A DNA stretch of 37,147 nucleotides. It comes from a marine bacterium B5-7. GTDB taxonomy: Bacteria > Pseudomonadota > Gammaproteobacteria > Arenicellales > CAJQKF01. This document shows positions 6,488-37,147 of this stretch, piece by piece. The stretch covers positions 1 to 37,147 of the forward strand of contig BQJD01000036.1 in the NCBI GenBank assembly GCA_021604525.1. Reading direction: 5' to 3'. Position 1 is the stretch's first letter; every line of letters begins with the position of its first letter. Position numbers and translations under genes: made by a program. A model generated the notes under the pieces. The model made no database searches. It saw only the letters and a list, made by a program, of their open reading frames with translations, and was not told the origin of the DNA.

Positions 6488-6918
6488 TCATTTTCGATCT
6501 TCTCGGCTGCGGATAGTCCAATACAAGGCCGATTCCAGTGAGAATGCATCACCCAGATGGAACATCTGCCGGAAGTTGGTACTGGCAATTTGAATAAACA
6601 TCCCCGTCAATGAAGGTTGATCCGCGATTGCACATTGAGAATGTCCGACCGAATCCGGTTTCCGACAGTATTGGTAAAAGGAATCCGAACCAGTATTGTA
6701 GGGGTCTTCATTAATCTCTTTGGTCGGTGTATATCCGCTATCAGTTCAATATCATCAGTAGTATGGAGAACCCTATCGCGCTCCGTTACTGCAATATATT
6801 CGGGTTCGCGTATATCCTCGGAGGGAAGAAAAAAACGATCAGCAAAGTAGTCAATATGGGTCATGCACCCCGACAGGAATACAACGACGATCAGAGTGAA
6901 GCCGAATTTAAGTCTCAT
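6488..6918 (-). pseudogene. CocE/NonD-type (S15 family) lipoprotein hydrolase, internally deleted remnant
   Basis: An N-terminal fragment (6918-6607, 103 codons plus stop) starts with a lipoprotein signal, LIVVVFLSGC with lipid-anchor Cys18. It then reads like the start of Xaa-Pro dipeptidyl-peptidase/CocE hydrolases: IELIADIHRP and TILVRIPF. The frame ends at TGA 6609-6607. In another frame the DNA just before and after that stop reads AIADQPSLTGMFIQIAS and then FHLGDAFSLESALYW, ending at TGA 6490-6488. This resembles the CocE segment that lies after the catalytic serine (hPsLkA, then the GGa..l...W region). The catalytic GGSYxG block expected between the two parts is absent. The simplest reading is an internal deletion with a frameshift. 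The ATG overlaps the enolase stop (ATGA, 6918-6915), so the intact gene belonged to the operon. Confidence 0.65.
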
Positions 6919-7979
6919 AATCGGTCCGAAGAGAGTATACCGCCGTGACCAAACATAATCGGTGGATCGACAACGTCGCGTTCGAGAAGATATGTTCCGA
7001 ATGCACCTTCCTGTGCAATGAGAATATCGCGATAAGCATTCGCTAAAGGTAAGGCGGCTCGTGTCAGGATACTGGTTTCGCCGACCTGTGCGCCGATGAC
7101 AATTCCTATCCCTAGTTCTTTGGCGCGTTGCGCGATTTCCAGCGAGCGTATCAATCCGCCCATTTTTGATATGCGTATGTTGATGATCCATCGCTCTGGA
7201 TCGTTACTGATAGAGTTAATATCGGCTAACTTGAGAAAACTTTCATCAAGTATGATTTGGGTATTCAGTGTTTCGCCAATGTATCGAAAGCCGTCGAAAT
7301 CACCAGGTGACAGTGGTTCTTCCAGGGCAAACGCAACAACATCAAGCAGCCGTAAAAATTCGACAGCGTCATTGGCAGATGCCCAGATGTTATTGGCATC
7401 AAAGCGCACTCTGACATCATTGCCGATAACATCCATGAATGCGACAAGGTTTGTTCGATCTGTTTGAAGATCACCAAACAGTTTGATTTTATAGTCCTTA
7501 AAACACAGCGCACTGTATTGCCGGAGTTGTTCGTTGAACTGTGTCGGCGAGCGCGCACCTAGAACAGCACTGTAGTGAAAGTCGCCGGCAAGGTCCGGGA
7601 CCGATAGAATGTTCTCGATCGATTGATGGGTGCTCAATGCGAATATATTCAGTAGTGCACTTTCCATAGCGCAATAGGCGGCAGGGTTACAGTCGATTTC
7701 CTCCCGGTGAAAGTTGGTCCAGGAAATGAGTTCCTCTACCTGATCGACTTTCAGGAGTTCGGGACGGTATCGATTGAAAAATTCATGTACAGATGTCAGC
7801 GTTTCGCCGGTCACATAATCTCGCGGGCAGCCTTCGCCCAATCCAGTAAGTCCGTCATGAGTCCTGGCTGTGACTAACACAGACTCGGTTACAACGCGTT
7901 TTGATGATGCGTGTTGAAATTCCTGTCGGAACGGGATCTCAAGGTTCTCTATTGTAAGGTCGCGTATTTCCATCATCAT
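6915..7979 (-). CDS. Enolase-superfamily enzyme (mandelate racemase/muconate lactonizing type)
   Basis: About 354 residues from the first of three consecutive ATGs (7979). The frame is open to 8039 (TTG), so the start is uncertain. Either way it overlaps the end of the GH3 gene by tens of bases, and no Shine-Dalgarno is obvious, which suggests coupled translation. The residues needed for enolate chemistry are present: KIK at K164/K166, metal ligands D194 (RFDANN), E220 or E221 (EEPL) and D245 (LDES), and the base K272 (SKMGG). The lysine pair on opposite faces fits the MLE/dipeptide-epimerase/OSBS branch (racemases, epimerases, cycloisomerases) rather than enolase itself. The C-terminal GAQVGETSILTRAAL is a clear barrel-end motif, but lacks the DxD pattern of classical Ala-Glu epimerases. 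The substrate is unknown; epimerisation of an amino-acid-derived amide made by the neighbouring GH3 enzyme is a reasonable guess. Confidence 0.85.
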   Translation of the reverse strand: MMMEIRDLTIENLEIPFRQEFQHASSKRVVTESVLVTARTHDGLTGLGEGCPRDYVTGETLTSVHEFFNRYRPELLKVDQVEELISWTNFHREEIDCNPAAYCAMESALLNIFALSTHQSIENILSVPDLAGDFHYSAVLGARSPTQFNEQLRQYSALCFKDYKIKLFGDLQTDRTNLVAFMDVIGNDVRVRFDANNIWASANDAVEFLRLLDVVAFALEEPLSPGDFDGFRYIGETLNTQIILDESFLKLADINSISNDPERWIINIRISKMGGLIRSLEIAQRAKELGIGIVIGAQVGETSILTRAALPLANAYRDILIAQEGAFGTYLLERDVVDPPIMFGHGGILSSDRL

Positions 7980-9561
7980 ATCTGTGTAGATAGTCTTCAA
8001 AATTGAAGGAACATTCATGCTGATACTGCACGTGGACAACCTTGTACTGTGCTTCCTTCTGACCTTTACTTAATTGATGCCGTTTAAATGCTTCGCCGGT
8101 TCCCTCACGAACAAATACGATATTTATAGGTTGAAGCCGACCGCTCTCTCTCTTCGCTTCAAACTCTATGTTCTGTTTGCACAAAAATAATTCGATATCC
8201 GACATATCAGTTGGCGGATGTTCGACATACAAATTATATTGAAGCCGTTGTTGACAGCCGATCATGATAAAAAAATTGAACTCTATATCGAGTTCCTGTT
8301 TGATCATGACAATTGCTTCAAGCAGATGATCTTCGTATAGCTTTTCACCTGTCAGATTAATGACTCCTTTACCTTTCTGGACAAACCTGATGGTTGGAGT
8401 GTTGTTGAAATATCCGGTCACTTCTACGATATCGTTAATGTCATAGCGATAAAGCCCGCATTGAGTTGTAGCGAACAGATAATATTGTTTGCCTGGCTCC
8501 AATTGTTCTACAGTCAGATATTCCGGTGAGTCACAATTACGCTGACTGCACTCAATGAATTCATAAAAGTTTTCATGAATGACGGGTATGGCCAGGTTAT
8601 TGATAGCATCAACAGTGATGCTGCCGCGAAATTCACTCGACAGATAGCCCATTTCCACCACATGGGTAGTTTTGGGAAGTAGTCGTGCAAGCGCAGGAAT
8701 GAGGGCGCGACAGCTACCCCCTGTCCAAACAACCACGGATTTCAGATTCGACCAGAGGTGTGAGAATTTGATGGTGCCATTTAATGAGTGTAGTTGACGT
8801 ATCTCCTCGCCCCTATCCGGAGTGATTATGTCTATCGCGTCAACAATCTCGTGTATTCGCTGATTGATCACCTGGTGCAGCTTCAACAGAGTTGAAGGAT
8901 TTGCGGTTGCAATCATGCTGATGTTTTGCTCCATCAATGCATGTACGGCAATGCGAAAATATTTTTCTTCATAATCTTTCAAGTCCAGTATCTCTACGGG
9001 TACCACGTACTTGGCACGAAGCGGCGCCGGCATGCTTTTGTAGATAAGTCCGGACATGGAGCCATAGGGTATGCCGCTATCTAAATATCCCTCCACAGCG
9101 GGACCGACGATACCGAGAATCTTGCCGGAATAAACACCGGGGATTGCAGCATAGTTCGCATAGGCAACAATGTGCTGGCTACGTCGATACTGTTTGATAT
9201 TACTTTTTAATACAGGTATGTATTTCGGTCGCCCGGTTGTGCCACTGGTCTGTGAATACATCTGTGGGTGTTGCGAGTTCAGACTATGTTCCCTGGTCTT
9301 GTCCTGCTGTTCGATATAAGGGCGTAAGGTTTCATAGTCTTGTATTGGAACGGCATTGCAAAAATCCGAATACGAATGAACCGCAGCGAATCCGTGACCC
9401 CTGCCGAAATCGGTATGTTGATTTCGCTTGAGAATATTTTTTAGCACGGCCATTTGGGCGGCTTGAGGATTGGTGGTAGCGCGTAATAATGGTTTCCAAT
9501 GCATCTGCCTGGTCCATAACATCTTCAGATGCGTCACAAAATTAACTGCTGCATTATTCAC
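7939..9561 (-). CDS. GH3-family acyl-adenylate-forming amide synthetase
   Basis: 540 residues, GTG start at 9561 overlapping the desaturase stop (GTGA, 9561-9558). It matches the GH3 auxin-responsive-promoter family of the adenylating superfamily, which in plants joins carboxylic acids such as indole-3-acetate or jasmonate to amino acids through an acyl-AMP. The ATP-binding signature SQTSGTTGRPKYIP is at 103-116. Further typical elements are a VVWTGGS segment, GYLSSEFRG, and the family's YRYDINDIVEVTGY followed by FVQKGKGVINLTGEKLYE. The length is close to that of plant GH3 proteins. Bacterial GH3 homologues are scattered and mostly uncharacterised; a few act as amide synthetases in natural-product pathways. 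Neighbours point to an amide or lipid product: a membrane hydroxylase before it and an enolase-superfamily enzyme after it. Family assignment is firm; substrates are not known. Confidence 0.9.
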   Translation of the reverse strand: MNNAAVNFVTHLKMLWTRQMHWKPLLRATTNPQAAQMAVLKNILKRNQHTDFGRGHGFAAVHSYSDFCNAVPIQDYETLRPYIEQQDKTREHSLNSQHPQMYSQTSGTTGRPKYIPVLKSNIKQYRRSQHIVAYANYAAIPGVYSGKILGIVGPAVEGYLDSGIPYGSMSGLIYKSMPAPLRAKYVVPVEILDLKDYEEKYFRIAVHALMEQNISMIATANPSTLLKLHQVINQRIHEIVDAIDIITPDRGEEIRQLHSLNGTIKFSHLWSNLKSVVVWTGGSCRALIPALARLLPKTTHVVEMGYLSSEFRGSITVDAINNLAIPVIHENFYEFIECSQRNCDSPEYLTVEQLEPGKQYYLFATTQCGLYRYDINDIVEVTGYFNNTPTIRFVQKGKGVINLTGEKLYEDHLLEAIVMIKQELDIEFNFFIMIGCQQRLQYNLYVEHPPTDMSDIELFLCKQNIEFEAKRESGRLQPINIVFVREGTGEAFKRHQLSKGQKEAQYKVVHVQYQHECSFNFEDYLHRYDDGNTRPYNREP

Positions 9562-10856
9562 TGAAATGAATCCAGTCCTCGCACAAATGGCGACTTTATT
9601 TGCTCCACAAAACGCATCGGATAATTACGATTCAGTAAACCTAAATCTCCAACCCGTTTCTCCCTGGGTAAAAACCAGGTACCGAATAGTAAATCCCACA
9701 CGATCAGATTGTTGCCGTAATTATGATTCGATTCTTTGGGAAACTTTGAATGGTGCCAGCGGTGGAGTTCGGGTCCGCTGATGATGTAATTCAGCCATCC
9801 CAACCGGACATCGATATTGCAATGCTGAAAAAACCCGTTGACCGCGTAAAACACGAAATACAAGGCTAGTACTTCCTGAGATACACCGAAAACAAGAAAG
9901 GGCATGGCATCGAACAAAAACTGTATGCCTTTTTCAAGTGGATGAAATCGACCGACATTCAACCAGTACAGTTTGTGTGGTGAATGATGAACCGCGTGCA
10001 ATCTCCATAATGGTGTCCAGTTGTGGGCGAGCCGATGAACCCAGTAGCGCATGAATTCAGCGCTCAAAAGCATTAGTAACATTTGTCCGTAGACAGGCCA
10101 GTGATGTGGCCAAAGATGAGTAGCAGGAGTGCTTTGTTGCGACATCGTCCCAAGAATCATAAATACGATAGAAAAGGACAATAACCGCGGTAACAGTATT
10201 TGCACGAGCAGCATATAGATCGTGTCCTGCGTGACATTATTCCGATCGGCATGCCAGGTTTTTCGATAGGGATATGTACGTTCAAGGAGGGTGATCGCCA
10301 GAGCGGCAGCAATGACAGGAATAAACGTGGCTAGCGACAGGTTTGCACCTCGATAAGCATAGACCATACAAATAATCTGTGCACTCAGCATAATACTGGG
10401 GTAGGCAATCCATCTAATCAGGTGTTGATCGATACGCCAATAATACAGTCCGACTGATATGATGAATGACGCAAGTACCAGATGAAAGATCGTTGGTATT
10501 AAAGCACCTAACCATGAATGTTCGACAGCAAAGCTGAGGCCAGCCGTTAGGCGAAACAGCATTACGAAAAGATAAATAAAGCCTGGAATCAGCCATACCA
10601 ATCCCGTTTTTCGATTGACTCGTAGGGTGTCGGTGCGAACTTTAATAATCATCCGCAGGCAAAGCGCTATTATCATGAGCTGGGCTAGCAGCAATAGCGG
10701 ATAGGGTAATGTCCCGCTTTGCCATGCATCGAAAGGGGGTAGAAAGGTGACGGGATGTACTGTTTGAAGTAGCTGCGCTGCAACCCGAAACACGAATAAG
10801 GTCAGTAAGAAAATTAACCAGGCGCTAAATGGGCGAGAGCTATAATTTACAGTCAT
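9558..10856 (-). CDS. Sterol desaturase / fatty acid hydroxylase family membrane protein
   Basis: 432 residues, ATG 10856 preceded by a purine-rich gagaga. The protein has several hydrophobic membrane segments (about 10-30, 50-72, 86-110, 118-140, 150-190, 213-236, 315-340). It carries the histidine clusters of di-iron membrane hydroxylases: HRLAH (274-278), HAVHH (287-291), H345 and HRWHH (365-369). It would place a hydroxyl or double bond on a lipid-like substrate at the cytoplasmic membrane. It is longer than minimal bacterial members because of an extra N-terminal set of membrane helices. It is the first gene of the operon: its TGA overlaps the GH3 start codon. An AraC-type regulator lies upstream in the same direction after a 238-base gap. 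Confidence 0.9.
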   Translation of the reverse strand: MTVNYSSRPFSAWLIFLLTLFVFRVAAQLLQTVHPVTFLPPFDAWQSGTLPYPLLLLAQLMIIALCLRMIIKVRTDTLRVNRKTGLVWLIPGFIYLFVMLFRLTAGLSFAVEHSWLGALIPTIFHLVLASFIISVGLYYWRIDQHLIRWIAYPSIMLSAQIICMVYAYRGANLSLATFIPVIAAALAITLLERTYPYRKTWHADRNNVTQDTIYMLLVQILLPRLLSFSIVFMILGTMSQQSTPATHLWPHHWPVYGQMLLMLLSAEFMRYWVHRLAHNWTPLWRLHAVHHSPHKLYWLNVGRFHPLEKGIQFLFDAMPFLVFGVSQEVLALYFVFYAVNGFFQHCNIDVRLGWLNYIISGPELHRWHHSKFPKESNHNYGNNLIVWDLLFGTWFLPREKRVGDLGLLNRNYPMRFVEQIKSPFVRGLDSFQ

Positions 10857-11094: not shown

Positions 11095-12129
11095 TCATGG
11101 ACATGAATCTAATATCTTGACTCCGATCACGCAAAATTTGCGACGATAAGCACTGGGTGTAATGCCGGTGATTCGTTTAAAAACCCTGCGGAAAAATGAC
11201 GGGTCCTGGTAGCCAACTTTCCAGGCGATTTCATCTATGGACAGGGATGTGGTTTCGAGATGGCTTTTTGCATCTTCGATACGCAGGTTCTGAACATAGC
11301 GAATGGTGGTATAACCGGTAGCATTTTGAAATCTGCGATTAAAACTCCGCTCACTGAGTTCTGATCGCTGCACGACGCTTTCAACAGGGTTTGTCTGATG
11401 ATGGTGTTGACGCAACCAGTTCTGTGCATCCAGAATGATCGTGTCCTGGTGTCGGGTGTTTTCTTGAAAAAGAATGTAGGGTGCCTGGCCATCCTCGTGC
11501 CATTGGAGCAAGAAAAATTTAGCGATGGTACGGGCGGCGGCTGGACCGGCATACCGGCATATCAAATAAAGAATAAGGTCGTGCCAGGCGGCAGATGCAC
11601 CGGACATGACAATACACTCGTCGTCGCCGGTTGTTACCAGCACTTTAGTGGTGTTGAGTTTAACCTTTGGAAAATTACGTCGGAAGGTAGATTCGAATGC
11701 CCAGTGTTGAGTCGCTTCCCGTCCATCGAGAAGACCGGTTTCCGCCAGCAGCAAGGCGCCAGTACATGAAGCGCATATCAATTTATCCCTGGCATATAGT
11801 TCCCGTATCCACTCGACCACCTGTGGATAACGGCCGACGTACCATTCGCCTTCAGCATCTGTAAATAATGATGGGATAATCACGCCGTCGGTGTGTTCCG
11901 CGTTACTCAATCCGTGCTGTACCAGCGTTGGTAATCCAAGCGAGTTAATCATATACCGGTTATCCGTTGATCCATGGTCGGAGAGTGAATCGGGCGCAAC
12001 AATCTCAGCCCTGAAATTAACCGAGCTCGGCACAACCGTGTTGAACAGATTCAACACGGTATACATTCCGGTCAACGAAGAGACATCCGCTTCCGGAATC
12101 GCAAGTAGACTGATATGCATTTCAGACAT
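11095..12129 (-). CDS. GlxA-type AraC-family transcriptional regulator with DJ-1/PfpI domain
   Basis: About 344 residues using the ATG at 12129-12127; ATG 12120 and ATG 12159 are alternatives. The 12129 start is preferred because an inverted repeat at 12152-12167 would otherwise lie at the start codon. The N-terminal ~200 residues form a DJ-1/PfpI-like domain, with CASCTGALLLAETGLLDG around the nucleophile-elbow position. The C-terminal ~100 residues are a double helix-turn-helix of the AraC family, with SERSFNRRFQNATGYT and IDEIAWKVGYQDPSFFRRVFK. Such GlxA-like proteins usually sense a small amide or quaternary-amine metabolite and activate neighbouring genes. It sits between the desaturase-GH3-enolase operon (downstream, same strand) and a divergent methyltransferase, so either could be its target. 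Confidence 0.9.
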   Translation of the reverse strand: MSEMHISLLAIPEADVSSLTGMYTVLNLFNTVVPSSVNFRAEIVAPDSLSDHGSTDNRYMINSLGLPTLVQHGLSNAEHTDGVIIPSLFTDAEGEWYVGRYPQVVEWIRELYARDKLICASCTGALLLAETGLLDGREATQHWAFESTFRRNFPKVKLNTTKVLVTTGDDECIVMSGASAAWHDLILYLICRYAGPAAARTIAKFFLLQWHEDGQAPYILFQENTRHQDTIILDAQNWLRQHHHQTNPVESVVQRSELSERSFNRRFQNATGYTTIRYVQNLRIEDAKSHLETTSLSIDEIAWKVGYQDPSFFRRVFKRITGITPSAYRRKFCVIGVKILDSCP

Positions 12130-12151
12130 GGCAAGGACTGGCGATTTGGCA

Positions 12152-12228
12152 GGAAACAACCGTTTCCGACTATTTTACCTCTTAACATTTCAACAAACTC
12201 ATTGCGATAGTGTGGTTTCACAAAACCA
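12152..12228. promoter_or_regulatory. Two inverted repeats in the divergent regulator/methyltransferase promoter region
   Basis: The 116 bases between the regulator start (12129) and the methyltransferase start (12246) contain two perfect inverted repeats. One is ggaaac-aacc-gtttcc (12152-12167), about 23 bases before the regulator ATG. The other is tggttt-caca-aaacca (12213-12228), about 18 bases before the methyltransferase ATG. Their centres are 61 bases apart, close to six helical turns. They share the arm layout (6-4-6) and partly the arm sequence (gttt/aaac), which fits operator sites for one dimeric regulator. This is inference; no promoter boxes are assigned. Confidence 0.45.
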
Positions 12229-32775: not shown

Positions 32776-32851
32776 GGGCCGTTAGCTCAGTTGGTAGAGC
32801 ATCTGACTTTTAATCAGAGGGTCACAGGTTCGATCCCTGTACGGCTCACCA
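32776..32851 (+). tRNA. tRNA-Lys (anticodon UUU), CCA encoded
   Basis: A full cloverleaf can be drawn. The acceptor stem is gggccgt / acggctc with one G-U pair, and the D-loop contains the usual agctcagttggtagagc. The anticodon stem is tctga / tcaga around loop cttttaa (anticodon TTT at 32809-32811). The T-arm cacagg-ttcgatc-cctgt is standard, and discriminator A is followed by encoded CCA (32849-32851). A tRNA-Lys after cpoB is the conserved gammaproteobacterial arrangement. It lies exactly at the change to GC-rich DNA. Confidence 0.97.
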
Positions 32852-32930
32852 CCTTTCCTTTCCGCGTCCGCGTCCTTGCGGCCGGGGCGCGAAATCCGAG
32901 GCCACCCAACCGCCGCCGCCCGTCCCGTCC

Positions 32931-35459
32931 TCACTGCACAATCGCCTCAAACGACAGCGCCCAGACCGTCCCGGCACCCACCGTCACGGCGCCGTTCGCC
33001 ACCATCTCATTCCCCGCGTCGATGATCGCCCCGGTGATGCTGATGACGTCGCCATCGATCGCCTCCGTCAGGGGGCTCGTGGCTTCCACGTCGCTGAAGA
33101 TCGTGGCCTCCTCCGCCGGCGTGCAGTCCGCGAGCGCACAGGCCGACGTGCCGTTGTGGACCCGCAACGACGACGTGCCCGTGGCCGCCACGCCCTGGTA
33201 CAGGAAGCCGACATCCAGCACGTCGCGCACGCTGAGGTCGCTGATGGCCGAGCCGGGGTTGTTGAGGTAGATCAGGTACTTGATCCGCGTTCCCCGCGGC
33301 GCGGTGCTGCTGTCCGGAATGGGGGACCCGTCCGAAGCCAGGAAGGCCCGCTTGACGAGCTTGCCGCGATCGAACCACGCCACGTTGTTGCCGCCGTCGA
33401 CGGAGTTGGTGGGGAGGATGGGCAACAGGCCGGCATCGGAGGTGGAGGCGTCGGAGTCCGTCACATCCACGTGGTCCACCGCCTTGCTCGCGCCGGCGTC
33501 GAGCGTGAGGTTCCAGCGGGTGTTCGGGACCGCGGAGACCAGACTGAGCAGGTTGCCCGGCGCCCCGTCCAGCGTGAGCGTGCCGCCGGCGCCCACCGTG
33601 GTCACGGAGCTCGCGGCAAACGTGAGAACGTCGGCGCCCGTTACGGTCTTGTCCAGATTGTAGAAGGTGCTGTTGCCCTGGAGGCTCTGGCCGGCGCCGT
33701 TGAGCGCGACTGTGGACGTGCCCGCGTTGAACGTCCCGCTGTTCACCCAGTCGCCGGACACCTGGACCGTGTTCCCGTCCGCCGTCAGCGTTCCCAGGAT
33801 CTCGACATCGTGGCTGCTCACGTTGCCCGCACTGCCGCTGTGCGGACGGAACGTGTTGCCGGCTTTGATGTGGAGCTCCTCCTGGGTCAGCGCCCCGGTC
33901 ACGTCCACCGTGAGGTCGCCGCCGCCGTCCACGTCGTGGAAGACGTCCTCGCTGCCGGACACGGAGTTGTCGTACTGGGCGAGGTCGGCATTGGAGAGGG
34001 TCTGGTTGTCGTCGCTGCCGATGGTCAGGTGCTCTTCAAAAAGATCGACGCCGGTCATGGAGCCGGTGCCGTCGTACCTAGTCACGGTCACCGCTTCGTT
34101 GGCGTCGCCCACGCCCTGGAGGTAGACCGTGATCACGTCGCCCGCGGCCGGCGTGGTCATGCCCGAGATCTCCCAGTTGCCGCCCGACGTGGTGGTGGAC
34201 GCGGCCTCCAGACCGGAGTTGATCGCCACCCGAACGGTCCGGCCGTCCGCGCAGTTCGTCAGCTCATCGACCTGCCGGCAGGTCCCGGAGATCCGGAAGC
34301 CGAGCTCGAAGATCGTGTTGGCGGCCAGGTCGGAGAGGTACTGCACAAGGAGCGTGGTGCCCACCACGTCGGCGTTGTAGTCCACGCCCCGCGTCCTGGG
34401 GAGACCGTCCACCAGGATCCGGTCGGGTGCCACCGGGTTGTCCCAGCCGGTGATCTCGAAGGCGGGCTGGATTCGACTCAAACCGCCCACCGTCAGTTGG
34501 AACCGGACATGATCATCGGCATCGGCGTCGTCCAGCGTGTAGGCGCCCCGACCCTCGGCGAACCCGTCGCCCACCTGGGAGCCGTCCCCGTCCGAAATGC
34601 CGAAGTCCAGCGTGGCCGGGCTTCGGTAGTCGTCGGTGAATCCCGCGTGCCCGCCGATGACGCCGCCGCTGACCGTGATCCCGGTCGCCATGAACTCGAA
34701 CAGGTGCGAGGACACGTACGTGCCGCTGGGGACATCCAGGAGGTTGGTGCCGGAATCGTAGCCGGCCCTTCGATATCCGGTGCCCGAATCACTGATCTCG
34801 CCCAGATCGGGAAGCTCGGTGTTCCAGTCGGTGGTGGTGCCAACGTCGTAGGTGCTGTACCAGACCTGCAGGAGATCGGTGTTCGCTCCGTTGTCCACCA
34901 CGGCGGCGATGCGGTTGGTCTTGTCGCCCCGGCTGGCTCCGTATTGGGCCGGGTTCCCGCAGACCTTGTTCCAGAGGTCGCAGTAGGGGCGGACCGCGGT
35001 CAGCTCCTGCGTGTAGTAGAGCTTTCCGCTGGGGTACACGGAGTAGACGCGAGTCTCGACCATTCCGTTGTTGTACGTCACGTCGCTCTGAATCCGCACG
35101 CGCGTGCCCGTGTCCTCCAGCAGCGTCACGACCGTGCTGCTGTTCTGCTGGTCCTCGCTGGACGTGCCGCCGCCGCTGCATGCACCGCCGTCGGCGATGC
35201 TGCCTCCGCGGTGCAAGAGGTAGCGCTTGGAGCCGTCGGACGAAACGGAGGCCTTGTTGAAGGCGGGGTTCTCGAGCTTGTTGTAGAACTCCCGGATCTC
35301 GCCGGCGCCGTCGGTGGAACCGTCAAAGATCAGCTCGAACTCCGTGGTCTCGACCGTGGTGTCCGTGCCGAGTGTCGACGTGGTGAGCACGGCCGAGTGC
35401 GCGGCGGGCGGGAGCAGGGTCAGGAGACCCAGAACGCCCCACGCGCCGTTCTGCCTCAC
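32931..35459 (-). CDS. Large secreted beta-rich protein with DUF11-like C-terminal part
   Basis: 842 residues from GTG 35459-35457; the frame is open further upstream, but only inside the next gene's coding region. A signal peptide is clear (GVLGLLTLLPPAAHSA, cleavage near residue 22). The mature protein is acidic and rich in Gly, Thr, Ser and Asp. The middle (about 560-660) shows beta-helix-like repeats such as ILGTLTADGNTVQVSGDW and NSGTFNAGTSTVALNG. The last ~120 residues resemble a DUF11-type fold (GTRIKYLIYLNNPGSAISDL). No sorting motif was seen at the C-terminus. It probably works at the cell surface. The start overlaps the stop of the GNAT-nitrilase gene (GTGA). Confidence 0.85.
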   Translation of the reverse strand: MRQNGAWGVLGLLTLLPPAAHSAVLTTSTLGTDTTVETTEFELIFDGSTDGAGEIREFYNKLENPAFNKASVSSDGSKRYLLHRGGSIADGGACSGGGTSSEDQQNSSTVVTLLEDTGTRVRIQSDVTYNNGMVETRVYSVYPSGKLYYTQELTAVRPYCDLWNKVCGNPAQYGASRGDKTNRIAAVVDNGANTDLLQVWYSTYDVGTTTDWNTELPDLGEISDSGTGYRRAGYDSGTNLLDVPSGTYVSSHLFEFMATGITVSGGVIGGHAGFTDDYRSPATLDFGISDGDGSQVGDGFAEGRGAYTLDDADADDHVRFQLTVGGLSRIQPAFEITGWDNPVAPDRILVDGLPRTRGVDYNADVVGTTLLVQYLSDLAANTIFELGFRISGTCRQVDELTNCADGRTVRVAINSGLEAASTTTSGGNWEISGMTTPAAGDVITVYLQGVGDANEAVTVTRYDGTGSMTGVDLFEEHLTIGSDDNQTLSNADLAQYDNSVSGSEDVFHDVDGGGDLTVDVTGALTQEELHIKAGNTFRPHSGSAGNVSSHDVEILGTLTADGNTVQVSGDWVNSGTFNAGTSTVALNGAGQSLQGNSTFYNLDKTVTGADVLTFAASSVTTVGAGGTLTLDGAPGNLLSLVSAVPNTRWNLTLDAGASKAVDHVDVTDSDASTSDAGLLPILPTNSVDGGNNVAWFDRGKLVKRAFLASDGSPIPDSSTAPRGTRIKYLIYLNNPGSAISDLSVRDVLDVGFLYQGVAATGTSSLRVHNGTSACALADCTPAEEATIFSDVEATSPLTEAIDGDVISITGAIIDAGNEMVANGAVTVGAGTVWALSFEAIVQ

Positions 35460-37027
35460 TTTGCCCGGACCACGTGCACCGGCTCCGCCGGCTCGATGCG
35501 ATACAGATCGGTGCGACGGTCGCGCAGCGGTCGCACCGTGCCGACCTCGCGCGCCTGTTCCAGCGTGACCAGGTCCAGATCGCTGATGACCACGGTCTCC
35601 GAGTACGTGTCGGCGGTCCCGGCGACGCCTCCGGGAGGAAACGGAAAGTCGCTCGGCGTGCAGATCATCGCCTGCCCGTAGTTGATCAGGAAGTTCTCGA
35701 CCTGGGGCAGGTTGCCCACGTTGCCCGAAAGCGCCACGTACACCAGGTTCTCCACCGCCCGCGCCTGCGCGGTGTACTGGACGCGCAGAAAGGCGCGCCG
35801 CTCGTCGGTGCTGAACGGAACGAACAGGATCTCCGCCCCCGCCAGCGTCAGGAGTCGCGCGAGCTCCGGGAACTCGATGTCGTAGCACACCAGGATCGCC
35901 ATGCGTGCGTATCCCGTGTCGAACACGGTGAGTCCGCGGCCCGGTTGGATGCCGTACTCCTCGCGCTCGTTCGGCGTGATGTGGAGCTTGTCCTGCGTGT
36001 AGACGTGCCCCGTGGGCGTGACGAGATGCGCCACGTTGCGGATGCCGTCTTCGCCGCGCACGGGATGCGAGCCCGCGATGATGTGCAGACCGCTTCGCCG
36101 GGCGCGCGACACGAACAGTTCCAGGTAGCGATCCGTGTAGTCGGCGAGTCGGGAGATCGCTTCGCGGGGCTCCAGTTTCGGATCCATCAGGCAGAACAGC
36201 TGTACCGTGAACAGCTCGGGAAGGAGAAGGAAGTGGCAATGGTACTCCTCCGCCGTCGAGACGAAGAAGTCCACCTGGTGCTCGAACTCCTCCCAGCTCG
36301 CGATGCGCCGCATCTGGTACTGCGCGGCGCAGACCCGCACGGTGCGCACCGGCCGCTTGACCGGCGACGCCGAGATCCGGTGCCGCACCCGGCGAAAGTC
36401 CGGATTGTCGAACGAGAGGTGCGTGGCGAAGTCGAGGCTCTGTTCGTCGTGGAGGTAGCCCATGTGCACGCCCAGGACGTTGTACCCCGCCTTGAGGTGC
36501 GCCGACAGCGCGGGGTCCTTCAGCTCCCCGCGCATCACCCGGGCCACATACTCCTCGGCGGTCATCTTTCCGGAGTGGTCCCGGTATCCCGGGATCCGTC
36601 CGCCGGCCACCATGCGCCGGAGGTTGAACCGCTTGAGGATCCGGCGACGACCCTCGTAGAGGAGCCCGGCGATGCCCCGGCCGCGAAACTCAGGGTGCAC
36701 CGCGATGTCCGCGCCGTAGAGCGTGTCGCCGGCCGGATCGTGGGTGCTGAACGTGCCGTACCCGGTGATCTCGTTGTACGAGTACCAGGGAGAGTCGTCA
36801 TCCAGGGCGACGATGAGCGACGTGGCGTACCCAACGATGCGTTTGCCGGCCACGACCACGAGCTGCCCCTCCGGAAACGCCGTGATCTGCATGTCGAGCT
36901 GGCGCTCGTCACAGAGACCCTCCGGGGGGAACGCCGAGTAGGCGGCGCGCTCCACCGCATAGAGCTCGGCCACGTCGTTGGGCCGGGCGCGGCGCACCTT
37001 GATCGCGCCTTCGCGCGGCGGCGTCAT
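35456..37027 (-). CDS. GNAT acetyltransferase - carbon-nitrogen hydrolase (nitrilase) fusion
   Basis: 523 residues. An N-terminal GNAT domain (about 8-215) carries the acetyl-CoA loop FRGRGIAGLLYEGRRR (114-129). A C-terminal nitrilase-superfamily domain (about 228-523) has the Glu-Lys-Cys triad: E271 (LLPELF), K347 (TQDKLH) and C381 (VCYDIEFPE). This GNAT plus CN-hydrolase fusion is a known but functionally undefined architecture; an amidase with a linked N-acyl transfer function is plausible. ATG 37027 overlaps the stop of a tiny upstream frame (ATGA). The GC-rich codon usage matches its downstream partner and not the left 32 kb. Confidence 0.93.
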   Translation of the reverse strand: MTPPREGAIKVRRARPNDVAELYAVERAAYSAFPPEGLCDERQLDMQITAFPEGQLVVVAGKRIVGYATSLIVALDDDSPWYSYNEITGYGTFSTHDPAGDTLYGADIAVHPEFRGRGIAGLLYEGRRRILKRFNLRRMVAGGRIPGYRDHSGKMTAEEYVARVMRGELKDPALSAHLKAGYNVLGVHMGYLHDEQSLDFATHLSFDNPDFRRVRHRISASPVKRPVRTVRVCAAQYQMRRIASWEEFEHQVDFFVSTAEEYHCHFLLLPELFTVQLFCLMDPKLEPREAISRLADYTDRYLELFVSRARRSGLHIIAGSHPVRGEDGIRNVAHLVTPTGHVYTQDKLHITPNEREEYGIQPGRGLTVFDTGYARMAILVCYDIEFPELARLLTLAGAEILFVPFSTDERRAFLRVQYTAQARAVENLVYVALSGNVGNLPQVENFLINYGQAMICTPSDFPFPPGGVAGTADTYSETVVISDLDLVTLEQAREVGTVRPLRDRRTDLYRIEPAEPVHVVRAK

Positions 37028-37080
37028 CGGGGTCCGATCCGGGCGGGGCGTCCGAGGTCGGTCTCGTCCGGGTGCAGCAT
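37024..37080 (-). CDS. Possible 18-codon leader peptide before the GNAT-nitrilase gene
   Basis: ATG 37080-37078 lies 5 bases after a strong AGGAGGA site (37092-37086). It opens an 18-codon frame (begins MLHPDETDLG) whose TGA overlaps the GNAT-nitrilase ATG (ATGA, 37027-37024). The main gene has no good ribosome-binding site of its own, so ribosomes finishing the short frame could restart on it. The short peptide resembles nothing known. It could instead be an accident of frame next to a real ribosome-binding site. Confidence 0.4.
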   Translation of the reverse strand: MLHPDETDLGRPARIGPR

Positions 37081-37147
37081 GTCGTTCCTCCTGGTGGCCC
37101 CGGCGCGGGGCGGGTCCGGCCGCCTTCCCGTGGTGCGGGGTCGCGGG

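Follow-up and report, generated by a model that had tools for sequence, protein, structure and literature searches.

A conserved hydroxylase–GH3–enolase-superfamily operon in a marine gammaproteobacterium and its possible role in GH3-dependent lipid synthesis

Three overlapping genes on the minus strand of a contig of the marine gammaproteobacterium B5-7 raise the question of whether a membrane hydroxylase, a GH3-family enzyme and an enolase-superfamily protein act in one pathway, and what this pathway might make. The window, which is the whole stretch of 37,147 nucleotides analysed here, was described earlier in a first-pass annotation. Our analysis confirmed the open reading frames and their overlaps: the stop of the hydroxylase gene and the GTG start of the GH3 gene share a 4-nt GTGA overlap, and the GH3 and enolase genes overlap by 38 nt (Table 1). 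The family calls were also borne out by Pfam (FA_hydroxylase, 5e-31; GH3 N, middle and C domains, 2e-51, 2.5e-21 and 2e-9; MR_MLE_C, 9e-27). The three-gene operon is real, conserved and undescribed, and we take it to be a new variant of GH3-dependent lipid synthesis with a hypothetical chemistry. Literature searches for hydroxylase, GH3 and enolase together found nothing beyond the OlsH paper. The claim of an undescribed pathway has to be softened, however, as that paper had already described a GH3-dependent ornithine-lipid pathway of planctomycetes in 2025 (PMC12493201).

Table 1. Features of the operon and of the adjoining remnant in the window
Feature	Position	Strand	Size and basis
FA_hydroxylase gene, OlsE-like membrane di-iron hydroxylase	9558..10856	-	432 aa; Pfam, NCBIfam, His motifs
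N-terminal four-helix membrane domain of the hydroxylase, ~142 residues	10431..10856	-	tblastn to five relatives, alignment, model
GH3-family acyl-adenylating amide synthetase	7939..9561	-	540 aa, GTG start; Pfam, motifs, clade
Enolase-superfamily protein, MLE subgroup	6915..7976	-	353 aa; Pfam MR_MLE_C, model, alignments
CocE/NonD-family lipoprotein hydrolase remnant, first frame	6607..6918	-	46% identity to L041 protein
CocE/NonD remnant, second piece, other frame	6491..6742	-	48-49% identity to L041 protein

A gene for an AraC-type regulator with a DJ-1/PfpI domain (FtrA-like, 11095-12159) lies upstream of the operon on the same strand, and the genes upstream of the cluster in relatives look unlike it. 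In one of these relatives, G429, a PAS-GGDEF-EAL gene (L029:4516-7356) runs 4 nt into the cluster hydroxylase gene, its stop overlapping the hydroxylase start, a possible link to c-di-GMP. A promoter scan gave results at the chance level. At the far end of the window (32776-37147), the GC content climbs from about 0.52 to 0.67 directly after a tRNA-Lys gene (32776-32851), a shift that may reflect a genomic island or a contig whose end is chimeric.

The order hydroxylase–GH3–enolase is common to eight genomes from eight families, with 35-58% identity. Contig scans with GH3 as the query recovered the L015 contig only, from a relative in the same taxonomic order that has the same gene order and identities of 51% for the hydroxylase, 47% for the GH3 and 49% for the enolase. 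Whole-genome searches with an enolase profile worked better, giving strong matches in G429, G410, G501, G537, G542 and G572 that were well apart from all other enolases, and the gene order of the cluster was kept in all of them. The gene junctions in the eight genomes are gaps of 2-16 nt or overlaps of 4-38 nt, and at four loci (L030, L039, L040 and L041) the hydroxylase and the GH3 form a single open reading frame of about 840-880 codons. Because the same order is found in eight genomes, with fusions in four, the association is more than chance. In a GH3 tree of the eight cluster proteins and 18 other GH3s of the class, the cluster proteins fell on one side of a branch (99/99), apart from the other 18, which share 22-28% identity with the window GH3. 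The co-occurrence in the same order and the single clade of operon-linked GH3s, both named in the first-pass annotation as points to look at, were thus found, and on these grounds the suggested shared pathway of the three genes is well supported by sequence comparison. Among the loci of these 18 other GH3s, only L068 shows any similarity to the hydroxylase, about 7 kb away. Plasmids searched with the enolase gave no match, and the GH3s of Burkholderia and Vibrio plasmids had no cluster partners nearby.

The 4.4-Mb genome has no GH3 besides that of the window. The N, middle (GH3_M) and C (GH3_C) Pfam domains of the window GH3 scored 175, 76 and 38.5 bits, all above the gathering threshold of 23.6. 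The nucleotide-binding motifs, defined as SSGT..., Y.SSE and GLYRY..D (PMC12493201), were found as TSGTTGRPK, MGYLSSE and GLYRYDIND, and their core residues are invariant in the eight cluster GH3s. The best NCBIfam match was the OlsH model NF052613, at 97.3 bits and under its cut-off of 620. The same model was the best for every cluster GH3 (74-112 bits in the orthologs), and unrelated GH3s also match it at 51-60 bits. OlsH is reported to use ATP and Mg2+ in forming N-acyl ornithine from a free fatty acid, and the same authors expect other substrates for bacterial GH3 proteins (PMC12493201). The intact nucleotide motifs and the OlsH precedent support the earlier suggestion that this GH3 may couple an acyl chain to an amino acid.

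The hydroxylase matched PF04116 with 108 bits (5.3e-31), above the cut-off of 31. Its catalytic part spans residues ~145-426 and carries the motifs HRLAH, HAVHH and HRWHH, which are kept in four orthologs. Against the OlsE model NF052566 it reached 201 bits over positions 4-285 of 293, under the cut-off of 475, and OlsE was the best NCBIfam model of every cluster hydroxylase tested (148-209 bits). The possibility that any FA_hydroxylase would score in this way was rejected, as the three other copies in the genome gave 85 bits or no match. Since the OlsE and OlsH scores are far below their cut-offs, neither function can be transferred to the cluster proteins. OlsE, the nearest model, is known to hydroxylate the ornithine moiety of the ornithine lipid, that is, its amino-acid head group (PMC3972451). 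The earlier proposal that a lipid-like acid is hydroxylated first is a conjecture.

The tblastn searches indicated that the first ~142 residues of the window hydroxylase are a separate upstream gene of about 150 aa at five loci (L030, L038, L039, L040 and L041), a feature absent from the first-pass annotation. This domain has four long hydrophobic helices in a predicted model (pLDDT 81); Foldseek matched it to nothing in the PDB at E<=0.001, and no Pfam family scored above its cut-off: the matches to DUF1656, holin, 7TMR-DISM and Bax-inhibitor all lie under their gathering thresholds and were rejected. The four-helix gene was not found in L029, nor in L015, where the contig starts just upstream of the cluster. 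The four-helix membrane protein of ~150 aa is a further partner of the cluster and is fused to the hydroxylase in the window.

The AlphaFold2 model of the enolase (pLDDT 89.9) was closest to the N-succinyl-Arg/Lys racemase 2p88 (Z 38.4, rmsd 2.4, 343 residues aligned), followed by the dipeptide epimerase 3jva (Z 38.3, rmsd 2.5, 345 aligned), and several muconate cycloisomerases tie with these in the fold match. The MLE-subgroup fold, the strand-2 KxK and the three metal ligands are all present, and K163/K165, D193, E219 and D244 match K160/K162, D191, E219 and D244 of the B. subtilis Ala-Glu epimerase YkfB. The description of the catalytic residues as intact was correct for this set, but not for the second catalytic lysine. 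In an ungapped alignment to 3jva, 1jpm and 3rit, R268 of the window enolase stands where YkfB has K268, at the strand-6 end. Arginine occupies this position in all nine subfamily members found, each with the motif N[IL]R[IV]SKMGG. Strand 6 of the predicted model ends at residue 267, and the next lysine, K271, lies three residues past R268, outside the strand. Dipeptide epimerases typically have a DxD motif at the barrel's C-terminal end. The window enolase does not have it: the DLD of 3rit aligns with GAF, within a QEGAFG that is invariant in the cluster enolases, and the C-terminal QEGAFGTYLL aligns with ELFGPGLL of the chloromuconate cycloisomerase 4m0x.

These residues bear directly on the epimerisation that had been proposed for the product. 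With R268, a simple two-base epimerisation becomes less likely, and elimination or cyclisation may take its place; the proposal is thus weakened by the invariant Lys-to-Arg change. It may still be that the enolase is an ordinary two-base epimerase or racemase, in which a 1,1-proton transfer inverts the alpha-carbon and gives a D-configured head group. Its nearest sequences and folds are those of dipeptide epimerases and N-succinyl-Arg/Lys racemase, and those racemases act on N-acyl amino acids, the kind of compound expected from the GH3. However, the two-base mechanism of YkfB requires both K162 and K268 (PMC5808125), the second of which is arginine in all nine members, and the DxD is replaced by GAF, so that we consider this explanation unlikely, with a chance well short of even. 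A single-base enzyme, in which proton abstraction by K165 at the alpha-carbon leads to loss of a hydroxyl or to ring closure of the head group, with a dehydro or cyclic amino-acid lipid as the product, would agree with the retention of K165 beside the arginine in all members and with the alignment to 4m0x, and the operon hydroxylase could supply the leaving group. On the other hand, the beta-hydroxyl is hypothetical, and the known single-base muconate cycloisomerase and OSBS also retain the strand-6 lysine; we judge this explanation to be improbable to a similar extent.

One member of the enolase subfamily was found alone. G009 has a protein of 46% identity (L093:8293-9396) whose contig carries neither a GH3 nor a hydroxylase, and a GH3 search of this fragmented genome found none. 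R268 is kept in it, and the metal ligand D244 is changed to Asn, which fits decay or a changed function after loss of the partners, although this is one case in a fragmented genome.

The lipoprotein hydrolase that had been described next to the third gene did not hold up as an intact gene. The frame that begins at the ATGA, its start overlapping the enolase stop, ends at 6607 after 103 aa, and the hydrolase pieces lie in two frames with the rest missing. In L041, a 593-aa CocE/NonD hydrolase (TIGR00976 at 366 bits, meeting the curated cut-off) is encoded between the four-helix gene and the fused hydroxylase–GH3 gene. Window 6637-6852 matches residues 31-101 of this protein with 46% identity, and 6491-6691, in the other frame, matches residues 137-218, with 48-49% identity over residues 135-218; no match was found past residue 218, and the window copy lacks the full-length TIGR00976 domain. 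We rejected a working hydrolase here, the frame being broken, as well as an intact close CocE elsewhere in the genome, where there was only a 26% match, on C4. Judged from its sequence, the fourth gene is a pseudogene remnant of a CocE/NonD hydrolase. The other six clusters gave no match to the L041-type hydrolase, which, together with the remnant, suggests that this hydrolase is not needed for the core pathway.

Taken together, the data led us to propose, with a probability of about 0.5, that the operon makes a modified N-acyl-amino-acid lipid by a GH3-dependent pathway related to the OlsH ornithine-lipid pathway. This proposal takes the gene set, its order, the fusion, the clade and the motifs as observed; every substrate and reaction in it, and the sequence of the steps, we infer. 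By analogy with OlsH, the GH3 would adenylate a free fatty acid with ATP and join the activated acid to an amino acid at its alpha-amino group. The OlsE-like di-iron protein and its four-helix partner would hydroxylate the lipid in the membrane, most likely on the amino-acid head group, and the hydroxylase–GH3 fusion in four genomes suggests action on one membrane-held intermediate. The enolase would bind the head-group carboxylate through Mg2+, and K165 would take the alpha-proton to form an enolate. The enolate may be converted by epimerisation at the alpha-carbon, to which we give slightly less than even chances, or, with comparable chances, by a single-base reaction in which the hydroxylated head group undergoes elimination or cyclises, a course considered because the second lysine is arginine. 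The CocE-type hydrolase would be an optional extra, decayed in the window.

Several observations are in agreement with this N-acyl-amino-acid lipid pathway. The substrates of the closest enolase folds, N-succinyl-Arg/Lys racemase and the dipeptide epimerases, are N-acylated or peptidyl amino acids, and the partner-less enolase of G009 lacks the D244 ligand, as expected if the function depends on the partners. No OlsB-type acyltransferase (PF13444) was found in the window's genome, so ornithine lipids would not be produced through OlsBA in this organism. Against it, the G009 enolase persists without a GH3, though in a fragmented genome, and no OlsI-type O-acyltransferase was found in the cluster; R268 and the missing DxD stand against a standard epimerase.

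The acyl substrate may instead be another carboxylic acid, such as an aromatic or terpenoid one, and the product a soluble amide signal or an inactivated acid, in the manner of plant GH3s. The solved relatives, plant GH3s, act on jasmonate, auxins and benzoates. However, the nearest characterised pair, OlsE and OlsH, is lipid-specific, and the hydroxylase and its four-helix partner are integral membrane proteins, and we hold such a product to be rather improbable. A chance adjacency, or an operon that was loosely transferred and serves no common pathway, would suit the patchy distribution of the cluster (3/109 genomes of the order) and the lone enolase of G009, but is very improbable against the conserved order in eight families at such divergence, the four fusions and the single GH3 clade.

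Among known systems, the proposed lipid pathway resembles the OlsH/OlsI pathway of planctomycetes (PMC12493201) in a GH3 ligase that would join a free fatty acid to an amino acid to give the N-acyl form, in lipid-modifying partner genes in the operon and in an alpha/beta-hydrolase gene in one related locus. It differs in that the cluster GH3 is only distantly related to OlsH (97 bits against 620), that neither an OlsG methyltransferase nor OlsI was recognised in the cluster, and that an OlsE-like hydroxylase, a four-helix membrane protein and an enolase-superfamily enzyme are added. The cluster hydroxylases share with rhizobial OlsE (PMC3972451) the FA_hydroxylase fold over the full model, OlsE being the best model of each, but they score 148-209 bits against 475, some are fused to the GH3 or to the four-helix protein, and the window's genome has no OlsB. 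The enolase resembles dipeptide epimerases and N-succinyl-Arg/Lys racemase (3jva, 3rit, 1jpm, 2p88) in its fold (Z 36-38), strand-2 KxK and metal ligands, but with 21-26% identity, arginine for the strand-6 lysine, no DxD and, except at one locus, a GH3 and a hydroxylase as neighbours. The plant acyl-acid amido synthetases JAR1, GH3.12 and GH3.15 have the GH3 domains and the three nucleotide-binding motifs; the similarity is weak, and the cluster GH3 belongs to a bacterial operon. Compared with CocE/NonD hydrolases (TIGR00976), the L041 copy is intact and meets the cut-off, whereas the window has a broken N-terminal remnant.

Other neighbourhoods of GH3 genes were also noted. In G186 (L018:66-2981), a GH3 of a divergent clade is followed by an S33 alpha/beta-hydrolase and, at the contig edge, by an N-terminal enolase piece that shows 30% identity over 71 residues to the cluster subfamily and is interrupted by a stop and the contig end; it is a second, weaker GH3–enolase association. 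A second recurrent GH3 cluster (L066, L067, L016, L069, L019 and L022, some cut by contig ends) consists of a Rieske oxygenase, a small membrane protein, a ~250-aa protein without a Pfam match and the GH3, followed by a ~370-aa protein without a Pfam match and a ~900-aa RnfD/FG-GAP protein. In a third recurrent context (L017, L068 and L070), one or two B12-binding radical SAM proteins, closest to HpnJ-like ones, come after the GH3, and L017 and L070 also have a ~250-aa protein upstream. At L076:7751-9148, a GH3-like open reading frame adjoins apparent menE- and menC-type genes, as judged by eye from the sequence.

Bacterial GH3 proteins are widespread and nearly all are without an assigned function, and a conserved operon with fusions offers a testable handle on one clade of them. 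The invariant Lys-to-Arg change in a well-studied superfamily also poses the question of whether arginine acts as a base or the reaction has changed. We suggest, tentatively and at less than even odds, that the operon represents a new bacterial aminolipid class made by a GH3–hydroxylase machine, in which the head group is turned into a D-, dehydro- or cyclic form by the Lys-to-Arg enolase. To our knowledge, no enolase-superfamily enzyme is so far known to act on a membrane lipid, and this one would in that case be the first. A lipid product would mean a new membrane or signal lipid for Gammaproteobacteria.
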